Part shown: positions 20,421 through 34,902 of the stretch, piece after piece
How positions within the stretch are numbered: the stretch's first letter is position 1
Layout of the letters: each line of letters starts with the position of its first letter
Origin: a virus
DNA length: 36,681 nucleotides
Reading direction: 5' to 3' (one strand)
Virus record (IMG/VR): IMGVR_UViG_3300048837_000865
Coordinates: 1-36,681 of that record
The notes under the pieces: generated by a model
What the model was told of the DNA's origin: nothing
The model's input: only the letters and a program-made list of their open reading frames with translations
The model's database searches: none
Program-made: the position numbers and the translations under genes

Positions 20421-21332
20421 TTAGGCCAATTGAAGAACGCGAACGTCTTGAGCGCCAGATTCAGCAATGGCTTTCAGCGCTAAATCAGGGCCAAGTTCCA
20501 TCTCTACGTTGGCACCACCGGCCAAAGGAATTCCGTTGGCGAAAGTCACTGTTCCAAAACCAAGGGCGATAGCTTTGTTGCCCATGTTTTTGATGACAAC
20601 ACGACGACGGCCAGCCAAAGGAGAAGCAAACAACGCTACGCCACCCGCAGTGGTGTCAACTGACACGGCTGCATTTGAACCGCTAATGTTTGGTGCGGTG
20701 TTTACCCAGACGCGACGGTAAAGGTCAGAAATCAAATCTGCGCGATCGTTGGTCGCTGATACAGCGGCAAGAGCACCTGAAATTGCGCGTGAACCAATTT
20801 TAATTGGATTGCCTGCGTCAGCTGCATCGTCAGCTACGTCACCAGAAATTGCAGAGTTAGTCCACAAACGGCCAAGGCTGTCGACTTTCAAACCTGCATA
20901 ATCGCCATCAGTGTCGACTGATGAACTGAGTGAATCTTGGCGGATTGCAAGCATGAAAGCACCGATGTCGCCGTCAGAGTGTGCTTCGTCTTCTTCTTTT
21001 TCAAAACCATTGACCATGTCAATGTCAGCGGCAACACGCAAACGACCTTCTGAGTCCAAGGACAGTGGCGAGTAGTCGCCGTCGGCCGATACCAGCGTTC
21101 CACCGGCGTCACTGCGGACAGCTAAAACTTGAGTACCAATATCGCCAGTTGTGTGCGCTGAATCTTCGGCGAACTGACCAGCCGACTGAGCTACGTTAAC
21201 GTCAAGGGCTTCGCTTCCACCAACCGTGGTTGATGTCAATGCAGCTGTTCCTGTTCTCAAAAACGCTGCTACGCTATCGCCATCTGCTGGGGTTGTTGAG
21301 TCATAAATCAATTTGTCTTTACCCAAACTCAT
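20421..21332 (-). CDS. Repeat-containing head structural/decoration protein
   Basis: The protein has 303 residues and begins MSLGKDKLIYDSTTPADGDS. Two copies of a 40-residue unit follow at about residues 60-160: GDIG-x(3)-LAVR-x-D...DGDYSPLSLDSEGRLRV and GDIG-x(3)-LAIR-x-D...DGDYAGLKVDSLGRLW. Motifs of this form recur in structural proteins of many tailed phages. A C-terminal beta domain (RRVVIKNMGNKAIALGFGTVTF) may bind the shell. A strong ribosome binding site (TTTAGGAGGATTTAGAAC) and place near the capsid gene suggest an abundant decoration or head fibre protein. Confidence 0.8.
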   Translation of the reverse strand: MSLGKDKLIYDSTTPADGDSVAAFLRTGTAALTSTTVGGSEALDVNVAQSAGQFAEDSAHTTGDIGTQVLAVRSDAGGTLVSADGDYSPLSLDSEGRLRVAADIDMVNGFEKEEDEAHSDGDIGAFMLAIRQDSLSSSVDTDGDYAGLKVDSLGRLWTNSAISGDVADDAADAGNPIKIGSRAISGALAAVSATNDRADLISDLYRRVWVNTAPNISGSNAAVSVDTTAGGVALFASPLAGRRRVVIKNMGNKAIALGFGTVTFANGIPLAGGANVEMELGPDLALKAIAESGAQDVRVLQLA

Positions 21333-29468: not shown

Positions 29469-29963
29469 CTACATTAGCCTCTCATCGCAGCCGAGTTGTT
29501 TCAGAACTTTTATTGCATCGGCCCACATAAAGCCGTGGTCACCATTTGTTTGTACCAGACAAGGCTTCAGGTGCACCATGTCGTCGTTGTCGTCAAGTAT
29601 CACGAAATGCGTTACGCCGTGTTCGGCGCCGTTGTCATCCAACCATTTTTGAATCTCTGTGCCGCGCTGCTCGTCGTAAAGGCGAGGCGTTTTTCCAATG
29701 ATCCGGCTTGGTTCTATGTCGCAATAATCATGGAGTAATTTCTTCAGCTCATCGAATACATGGCACTCACGCCACGAGCTGCTGATAACTATCTTGAGGT
29801 GTGGCAACTTGCGCATGATGAGCTTCAAGTTGTTCACGGCGATTGGGCAAAAGAATTCGTGATCGATCCAAATGCAACCTTTTATCTTTCGTTGCAGACG
29901 ATGCCATTCGACGCCCTGTGTTGAGTTAAGTACGCCGTCTATATCAAGGAACAGCACCTTCAT
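29469..29963 (-). CDS. HAD-family phosphatase-like protein
   Basis: The protein has 164 residues; the start is ATG 29963, overlapping the upstream stop by four bases. It shows HAD motif 1, FLDIDGVLN (nucleophile Asp7, acid Asp9), motif 2 VISSSWRE, and motif 4 FVILDDNDDM. The SSWR and DD pattern resembles the HAD domain found alone or in RNA/DNA repair proteins (Swiss-army-knife type), so a polynucleotide end-processing role is possible. Other HAD substrates cannot be excluded. It is the last gene before the large terminase in a coupled cluster. Confidence 0.8.
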   Translation of the reverse strand: MKVLFLDIDGVLNSTQGVEWHRLQRKIKGCIWIDHEFFCPIAVNNLKLIMRKLPHLKIVISSSWRECHVFDELKKLLHDYCDIEPSRIIGKTPRLYDEQRGTEIQKWLDDNGAEHGVTHFVILDDNDDMVHLKPCLVQTNGDHGFMWADAIKVLKQLGCDERLM

Positions 29964-30148
29964 TTTTCGCCCTTCTTCTCCTCGCTTTGTTTCCTGATTG
30001 CTAACACCGCCGCAACCAAAACTTCGACTTCCTCTTGCGTGTAATTGCGATACGAACTCAGAACCTTTTTGCATTGAACGCAAATCCAAGGGTTGCCACC
30101 GTCAGTGGTTGTCAGGCCGACTGGATCATGTGGTGGGCATTTATTCAT
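29960..30148 (-). CDS. Small zinc-ribbon-like protein
   Basis: The protein has 62 residues and starts at ATG 30148. It has an early Cys-x(3)-His (MNKCPPHDPVG) and then WICVQCKKVLSS, so two metal-binding pairs are plausible. The last half is one helix (EEVEVLVAAVLAIRKQSEE). Overlaps of 8 bases upstream and 4 downstream show tight coupling. The function is unknown. Confidence 0.65.
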   Translation of the reverse strand: MNKCPPHDPVGLTTTDGGNPWICVQCKKVLSSYRNYTQEEVEVLVAAVLAIRKQSEEKKGEK

Positions 30149-33522: not shown

Positions 33523-33828
33523 TTACTCCTTGTGCGGGTCGAAAACTTTTACGCCTGAAAAGCGCAAGTGCTCGTTGGCTTCGTGAAACTCTAGCTCCAA
33601 CAACCAAGCCCGCACCATTCGTTGCAATGCCGTTGGGCTGCCTTTGACCATGTTCCAAAACTGTTCCGTCACGGTGAACGTCTGGCTTATCTTGATCCAA
33701 CCAGGGGCGTCCGCATTCTGGCACCACAGACTGACCATGATCGGGCAGACTTTTGATTCCTCGTCGGTAACCGGCGGCAATCGAAACTTGGTCCGTGGCT
33801 TGTACGTGACGGTACCTAAAAATGTCAT
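33523..33828 (-). CDS. Hypothetical protein next to csrA
   Basis: The protein has 101 residues from ATG 33828 (MTFLGTVTYKPRTKFRLPP). In-frame sequence continues upstream through the csrA gene but that part overlaps a recognised gene and is Gln/Arg/Gly-rich, so the internal ATG is preferred. It is a mixed alpha/beta protein with KVCPIMVSLWCQNADAPGWI and AWLLELEFHEANEHLRFSG. It lies 8 bases after csrA and is probably co-translated with it. Confidence 0.65.
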   Translation of the reverse strand: MTFLGTVTYKPRTKFRLPPVTDEESKVCPIMVSLWCQNADAPGWIKISQTFTVTEQFWNMVKGSPTALQRMVRAWLLELEFHEANEHLRFSGVKVFDPHKE

Positions 33829-33836
33829 CAGCTCGG

Positions 33837-34052
33837 TTACCCATGGCCTGCCGTCCCCTCGCCGAAATCCAAGCGACTTCGGCCACTGTGTGTTTCCACT
33901 TTGCCGTTCACATCCTTGCGGTCGATGTGAATGTCCTTCGTTGTTGTTTTGATTCCCAACCGCACCTGCCTGCCCTTGACCGACATGACGAATATTTCCA
34001 CGTCGTTGCCGATGGCTATCGACTGTCCTGGTGTTCGCGTTAAAACTAGCAT
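33837..34052 (-). CDS. csrA: Phage-encoded CsrA/RsmA-type RNA-binding regulator
   Basis: The protein has 71 residues and matches CsrA over the first 48: MLVLTRTPGQSIAIG, then VEIFVMSVKGRQVRLGI and IHIDRKDV. Leu4 and Arg6 (first strand), the KGxQVR(L/I)G segment and Arg45 (equivalent to Arg44 of E. coli CsrA, with one extra residue before it) are present; these form the RNA-binding face. The family binds GGA in hairpin loops near ribosome binding sites as a dimer and changes translation or mRNA decay. The last 20 residues (GRSRLDFGEGTAGHG) are an atypical Gly-rich tail. Good ribosome binding site AAAGGA. Confidence 0.9.
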   Translation of the reverse strand: MLVLTRTPGQSIAIGNDVEIFVMSVKGRQVRLGIKTTTKDIHIDRKDVNGKVETHSGRSRLDFGEGTAGHG

Positions 34053-34077
34053 TGCGTTCCTTTGTCATTTTTTACGT

Positions 34078-34326
34078 TCAGTTTGGTTTTATCATTGGGC
34101 GACCGTTCAACCCGACAAGGGCCGAATCTTCAATTGGCGTGCCTACCGTTGGCACCTGCGCCCAAAATGTTTTACGTTGCGGTACGACGCCGTCTTCACC
34201 GGCTGGCTGCTTGGGTGTTACCAGCATTTGTTCCAACAAGACTTTTCGGCCTTCGTAACGCATGCGGATGATTGGCGTTACCTCGAATTGTTCGCCGTCG
34301 ATTTCTGCCATCCATTGCTCGCTCAT
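34078..34326 (-). CDS. Hypothetical protein upstream of csrA
   Basis: The protein has 82 residues from ATG 34326, overlapping the upstream stop by ATGA. It is a small beta-rich protein: EQWMAEIDGEQFEVTPII, RYEGRKVLLEQMLVTP, then a flexible C-terminus (VGTPIEDSALVGLNGRPM). No family is recognised. It is one of three short coupled genes that precede csrA. Confidence 0.65.
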   Translation of the reverse strand: MSEQWMAEIDGEQFEVTPIIRMRYEGRKVLLEQMLVTPKQPAGEDGVVPQRKTFWAQVPTVGTPIEDSALVGLNGRPMIKPN

Positions 34327-34574
34327 TTCTGGCCCACCCATTCTTCAAAATTTTTTAAGTGCCCGTGTTCCGGTTTAAAATAAAAATCTAAGTCGGACCA
34401 ATCACACATACGAATGCTTGGCGGGCCACGCATGCAATCACAACCGCTGTCATAATACAAATTGCCTTCACGTGAAAAATAGTTGCAGTCGTAACCACAC
34501 ATTGAGCAAACGTTTAAAACGTAGTGGTGCCCGGATTTAAGCTTTTCTTCAAATTTCTCTCTTAGATCAATCAT
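34323..34574 (-). CDS. Small Cys-rich protein
   Basis: The protein has 83 residues, with seven Cys residues, most in NVCSMCGYDCNYF and DSGCDCMRG, which could bind one or two zinc ions. The end is a helical, charged part (EHGHLKNFEEWVG). It starts at ATG 34574 with AGGAAAATAGGA upstream, directly after the structured non-coding stretch. The function is unknown. Confidence 0.7.
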   Translation of the reverse strand: MIDLREKFEEKLKSGHHYVLNVCSMCGYDCNYFSREGNLYYDSGCDCMRGPPSIRMCDWSDLDFYFKPEHGHLKNFEEWVGQK

Positions 34575-34595
34575 TCCTATTTTCCTTTTGTTGCG

Positions 34596-34704
34596 CGGGG
34601 CGTTCGCGGCGTACCCTGACCAAACAGGAACCGCCCCGAAGGACGGCGTGGATTCGAACCACTCGTCCGCAAAACACCCTTTGCTTGTGACTGGCCGGTC
34701 ACAA
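34596..34704 (-). ncRNA. Structured non-coding stretch of contiguous hairpins (RNA candidate)
   Basis: This 139-base gap (34575-34713) has no gene. Three hairpins follow each other with no linker. 34685-34704 is TTGTGAC/GTCACAA. 34669-34684 is GCAAA/TTTGC. 34641-34668 is GGACG and GTGG pairing to CCAC and CGTCC around a T-arm-like loop TTCGAAT. A fourth stem CGGGGCG/CGCCCCG spans 34596-34638. An alternative stem CCGTCC-TTCG-GGGCGG (34631-34646) excludes both its neighbours. It may be a 3' UTR element, a small RNA or a switch. Confidence 0.5.
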
Positions 34705-34713
34705 ACAATCTTT

Positions 34714-34902
34714 TTACTTACCCTTGCGCCGTAACCCGTTTTTCAACAGCAGCACGAGTGCCACGGGGTGACTAGCCACCAAGTCCGACACTATGCCCAG
34801 CATCTCCTTGATTTGCGCTATGGACTGGGACTTCCGCTTGCCCTCGCGCTTCGTTACCAACATCGCTAGGTCGTTCATGCTGCTCAACTTTAACTTCGCC
34901 AT
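34714..34902 (-). CDS. Small basic hypothetical protein
   Basis: The protein has 62 residues and starts at ATG 34902 with GGGAGGAGG upstream. It is helical and basic: LKLSSMNDLAMLVTKREGKRK, IAQIKEMLGIVSDLVASHP, LVLLLKNGLRRKGK. It overlaps the C-terminal 131 bases of the preceding gene in another frame. Its strong ribosome binding site and phage-like sequence make it likely to be real. The function is unknown. Confidence 0.7.
   Translation of the reverse strand: MAKLKLSSMNDLAMLVTKREGKRKSQSIAQIKEMLGIVSDLVASHPVALVLLLKNGLRRKGK

Follow-up and report, generated by a model that had tools for sequence, protein, structure and literature searches.

The minus-strand transcript of a short gap between two genes of a viral contig is predicted to fold into a domain that mimics tRNA in the layout of the bacterial Y RNA YrlA, and we consider it moderately probable that this domain has such a fold and serves as a decoy or docking site. 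The window analyzed is the whole 36,681-nucleotide stretch of an IMG/VR virus record that contains portal, terminase, head and tail genes and is marked by IMG/VR as a possible fragment. Positions 34575-34713 are, as a sequence-only reading had reported, a gene-free gap among overlapping genes, and its bounds are exactly the stop of 34714-34902(-) and the start of 34323-34574(-); the genes around it overlap each other, and the minus strand carries the RNA as well as the two genes next to it. Along this strand the RNA presents the 5' strand of a closing helix, a T-arm, a UUCG-capped stem, a GG-loop hairpin and the 3' strand of the closing helix, an order that is circularly permuted relative to tRNA. 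These parts and their neighbours are as follows.

34681..34708, minus strand: 5' hairpin right after the upstream stop codon, terminator-like by a loose scan only
34667..34679, minus strand: closing helix, 5' strand, GGGUGUUUUGCGG; partner 34598-34609
34648..34662, minus strand: T-arm-like hairpin GUGG-UUCGAAU-CCAC with a canonical T-loop; stem pair probability 0.99; models R1 and R2
34641..34647, minus strand: acceptor-like stem, tRNA 3'-side strand GCCGUCC; partner 34630-34636, probability ~0.52
34637..34640, minus strand: UUCG tetraloop, C-G closed, capping the acceptor-like stem; read from the sequence
34630..34636, minus strand: acceptor-like stem, tRNA 5'-side strand GGGCGGU, permuted to lie 3' of the T-arm; sequence and folds
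34615..34628, minus strand: D-arm-like hairpin CCUG-UUUGGU-CAGG; pair probability >0.99; GG in the loop, D-loop not canonical
34598..34609, minus strand: closing helix, 3' strand, CCGCGAACGCCC; partner 34667-34679
34575..34590, minus strand: ribosome-binding region of the 83-aa gene, AAAAGGAAAAUAGGA ahead of the AUG at 34574; read from the sequence
34323..34574, minus strand: downstream gene encoding a Cys-rich protein of 83 aa, without relatives found and assigned to no family

The gap had been proposed to hold an undescribed structured RNA, and the structured part of this proposal is likely to be right, with the minus-strand RNA reaching a fold z of -3.2 (1 of 200 shuffles is as good) and the plus strand a weaker z of -2.1. 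The hairpins that had been noticed at 34708-34681, 34670-34641 (the one with the T-arm-like loop) and 34633-34606 were recovered on the minus strand, as was the alternative UUCG-capped stem 34647-34641/34636-34630, which competes with an equally stable fold. These two mutually exclusive folds are computed at -41.5 and -40.8 kcal/mol (pair probabilities ~0.48 and ~0.52), and the competing fold lengthens the T-arm by GGACG/CGUCC and also pairs GGCG with CGCC. The T-arm, the D-like hairpin and the outer closing helix are held at >0.97 in both folds (0.76 for the innermost outer pair), and a small hairpin at 34685-34670 is possible only without the inner closing helix. What had been read as a possible switch is, in these models, a competition between the acceptor stem and the T-arm extension; a two-state switch was rejected, as the near-equal energies came with no sign of a switching function.

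A scan of the window for a T-arm, an adjacent capped stem and a GG-loop hairpin returned one site, the gap RNA, against an expectation of 0.003 per dinucleotide-shuffled window, or 0.047 when the D-like hairpin is dropped from the motif. The flanks that form the closing helix give a duplex of -23.5 kcal/mol; pairing as strong as this arises in 0.2% of flanks after shuffling and in 15 of the 5225 flank pairs taken from the genome. The chance figures for both the motif and the helix somewhat overstate the case, because the criteria were set after the site was seen, and the architecture was itself recognized post hoc in a scan covering many windows. Model R1, built from 31 UUCG-capped phage RNAs, matches the gap site alone in the window at 27.1 bits (E 2.6e-6), a score that is partly circular, since the T-loop and UUCG of the window copy itself served to collect the members, and that lies in a range where chance junctions of ordinary tandem tRNAs reach ~36 bits. 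Model R2, built from 17 relatives chosen without selection for UUCG, also matches the gap site alone, weakly (15.6 bits, E 0.016), and leaves the GG-containing hairpin, in which conserved tRNA D-arm bases are missing, unaligned as a D-arm.

YrlA is described as a mimic of the D, T and acceptor arms of tRNA that tethers Ro60 to PNPase (PMC8394870), a role as competitive inhibitor of an anticodon nuclease has been suggested for it (PMC7790460), and its systems in Salmonella and Deinococcus are credited to Chen et al. 2014 (as cited in PMC8394870, PMC7790460). The descriptions of YrlA consulted name no tRNA arms besides these three. The element order of the window RNA equals that of the Rfam YrlA (RF02553) consensus structure: the T-arm leads directly into an acceptor-like stem that ends in a loop, a hairpin follows at the place of the D-arm, and the tRNA-like domain is enclosed by a helix between its 5' and 3' sides. 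Both would be mimics unable to carry an amino acid. Unlike YrlA, the window copy lies inside an mRNA, has a non-canonical D-loop and a T-stem of 4 bp rather than 5, and lacks the Ro60-binding sequences. The motifs GYGYAG...GUUAC and CGCYUGWUC, taken from the Ro60 side of Ro60-linked phage copies, are absent from the window flanks, TROVE (PF05731) is absent from the 36.7-kb record, itself possibly a fragment, and the window RNA, searched as 151 nt, goes unmatched by Rfam YrlA (cut-off 69 bits) even at E 10.

The same three absences weigh against the window RNA being a diverged but genuine YrlA Y RNA that binds a Ro60 encoded by the phage or its host beyond the fragment, which we hold to be unlikely even though the YrlA layout is shared, the record may be incomplete according to IMG/VR, and phages with related RNAs also carry Ro60. 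Since the motifs, a TROVE gene, an Rfam match and like copies are all missing, the window RNA was filed as having a YrlA-like architecture and not as YrlA, and it is probably, to judge from the modelled structure, an orphan YrlA-like tRNA mimic within an mRNA, represented by a single copy. It is also not an undescribed kind of RNA, as had been supposed, because the permuted, capped tRNA-like architecture is recognizably of YrlA type. Viral, genome and phage collections yielded no homologue of the window copy, which is known from one sequence: blastn with the gap and tblastn with the neighbouring proteins gave no close phage relative, exact and degenerate element patterns gave no similar copy in viral and bacterial genome collections, and a DUF7352 search gave one distant contig (L002), which is without the element.

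The layout, as opposed to the sequence, belongs to a wider class of phage RNAs that are tRNA-like, permuted and capped by UUCG. Scanning viral contigs for a T-arm followed by CTTCGG gave at least 120 matches, and those listed include 45 loci besides the window with a UUCG that caps a stem of at least 5 pairs. Among the matches listed, 40 of these 45 related RNAs, but not the window copy, were called tRNA by ARAGORN after their halves were rotated, a lenient test in which many rotations were tried, and 31 of the 45 show strong covariation of T-arm, capped stem and D-arm, the capped stem having been partly selected for in collecting them. A TROVE/Ro60 gene is present in 23 of the 38 IMG/VR records that contain such RNAs (among the matches listed) versus 0 of 9 controls, and the named phages found by blast (CcrColossus, Xanthomonas 10KY502B and prophiGD43A-5) all have TROVE/Ro60 genes. 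Rfam YrlA matches one phage copy (L105) at 45 bits (E 6e-9), below the 69-bit cut-off. On the basis of the TROVE neighbours and this match of one copy, the class is taken to consist of YrlA-type Y RNAs in phages; a literature search found no description of it as permuted tRNAs in phages. The Ro60-linked phage Y RNAs (for example L078, L119 and CcrColossus, L129) share with the window copy a T-arm that leads directly into the capped stem and, in many, the UUCG cap, but they have canonical D-arms, Ro60-side motifs and, in many cases, an anticodon arm.

Several observations on this class stand apart from the window RNA. At least 16 of ~47 phage or bacterial YrlA-type RNAs contain a complete anticodon arm (a perfect 5-bp stem and a 7-nt loop with U33), where shuffling expects 0.7; carriers include L078:1974-2110(+), L119, L105, L050, L023, L018, L059, L049 and L215 (Actinomadura), and their anticodons are varied (GCU, UGU, GUU, GUG, UCC, UAU and CAU). 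Judging from this pattern, phage Y RNAs are often mimics of whole tRNAs, anticodon loop included, which makes a connection with tRNA-cutting defences testable; those with anticodon arms might be decoys for anticodon nucleases. A second group of phage RNAs with a permuted, UUCG-capped tRNA-like domain (L045:700-830(+), L069, L071, L061, L094 and L090) has other flanks, consisting of an outer stem and an NCWGCRA-like motif, in records without a TROVE gene. In addition, annotated tRNA-Thr genes in the named phages L130 (OQ622092.1 ~20624-20691) and L131 (MW584167.1 26001-26079) overlap permuted Y RNA-like RNAs beside Ro60/TROVE, so these annotations look mistaken.

A tRNA gene, whether standard or permuted, was rejected for the window copy, which has no 5-bp/7-nt anticodon arm and fails in ARAGORN with rotation; a tRNA/tmRNA search of the direct sequence also found none. 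The permuted tmRNAs (RF04321, RF01849-RF01851) likewise place T-arm, acceptor and D region in permuted order inside a closing helix. Ahead of the T-arm, GCGGACGA is reminiscent of tmRNA, as is a G-U pair that the capped stem has at position 3-70, and both would fit a permuted tmRNA or a tRNA-like remnant of one. We judge this origin very unlikely, as the cyano_tmRNA alignment of 9.1 bits is at chance level (E 3.4), no downstream tag frame ends in Ala-Ala, the intervening loop has four bases, and tmRNA_permuted (RF04321) finds nothing at the window, yet it detects a real one in another viral contig (L120:6710-6975(-), 62.1 bits), which served as positive control. The T-arm together with the acceptor 3' strand is the segment used by many integrases. 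Both are present in the gap, and this stretch could in principle belong to an attachment site that includes the 3' end of a tRNA gene of the host (candidate stretch GUGGUUCGAAUCCACGCCGUCC); such an origin is hardly credible, given a complementary acceptor 5' strand, a UUCG loop and a closing helix that it would not lead one to expect, the A-G mismatch at the T-stem base, and the lack of a recognized integrase among the window proteins tested.

It is less improbable, though still rather unlikely in our assessment, that the hairpins make up an ordinary leader of the 83-aa gene, acting in cis near its ribosome-binding site and perhaps through CsrA, and that the tRNA likeness is coincidental. The element stops just short of the ribosome-binding site, which is overlapped by GGAs, the alternative fold is equally stable, and the Rfam L2-Alphaproteobacteria leader (RF03142) aligns at 20.9 bits (E 0.0021). 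That score is far under the 37.8 cut-off, the alignment is mostly confined to a UUCG hairpin plus a purine-rich site, and the 83-aa gene, whose product has no family, is not that of L2; the joint occurrence of T-arm, capped stem and closing helix is also improbable by chance. The csrA gene noticed by the sequence-only reading is genuine (33837-34052(-), Pfam CsrA E 3.5e-15) and starts ~520 bases downstream of the gap, and the count of three GGA triplets in that reading was correct. A CsrA-linked RNA nevertheless found no backing beyond this proximity, since no GGA sits in the loop of a hairpin and two of the three belong to the ribosome-binding region; a CsrA-sequestering RNA of the CsrB/RsmY type, which needs many loop GGAs, was rejected on the same count. 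In the same region, a 181-aa frame at 33523-34068(-) overlaps csrA in another frame, and its match to phrog_1540 is limited to the C-terminal part, so the frame probably begins in reality close to the csrA end.

The resemblance to a tRNA T-arm was the right clue in the earlier reading, and the favoured explanation remains a tRNA-mimicking domain of YrlA layout. The minus-strand transcript would form, in turn, the closing helix, the T-arm, the UUCG-sealed acceptor-like stem and the D-arm-like hairpin before the closing helix is completed, and with its acceptor end capped the predicted RNA could not be aminoacylated as encoded. In its likeliest role it would be a decoy, or a docking site, for proteins recognizing the tRNA elbow and acceptor helix, for which tRNA-modifying or tRNA-processing enzymes, exoribonucleases and tRNA-directed host factors are candidate partners, and it may act either as a stable RNA excised from the transcript of the operon or in cis, as a portion of the leader that precedes the 83-aa gene. 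To our knowledge, the tRNA mimics described so far in bacteria are tmRNA and the Y RNAs bound by Ro60. More tentatively, and with doubt outweighing confidence, the window RNA could be a Ro60-independent, UUCG-locked tRNA mimic in a phage mRNA, used as a decoy for tRNA-directed host factors or as a two-state leader, where adopting the tRNA-like fold would alter how the gene behind it is expressed. If a tRNA-like domain does reside in a protein operon without a tag frame, a Ro60 motif or a Ro60 gene, this would suggest that the capped tRNA module is employed by phages in its own right.

Elsewhere in the record, the protein encoded at 29469-30089(-), just upstream of the terminase gene, has a HAD domain of the type found in Swiss Army Knife RNA repair proteins (PF18143, E 1.8e-26) and is possibly relevant to RNA repair.
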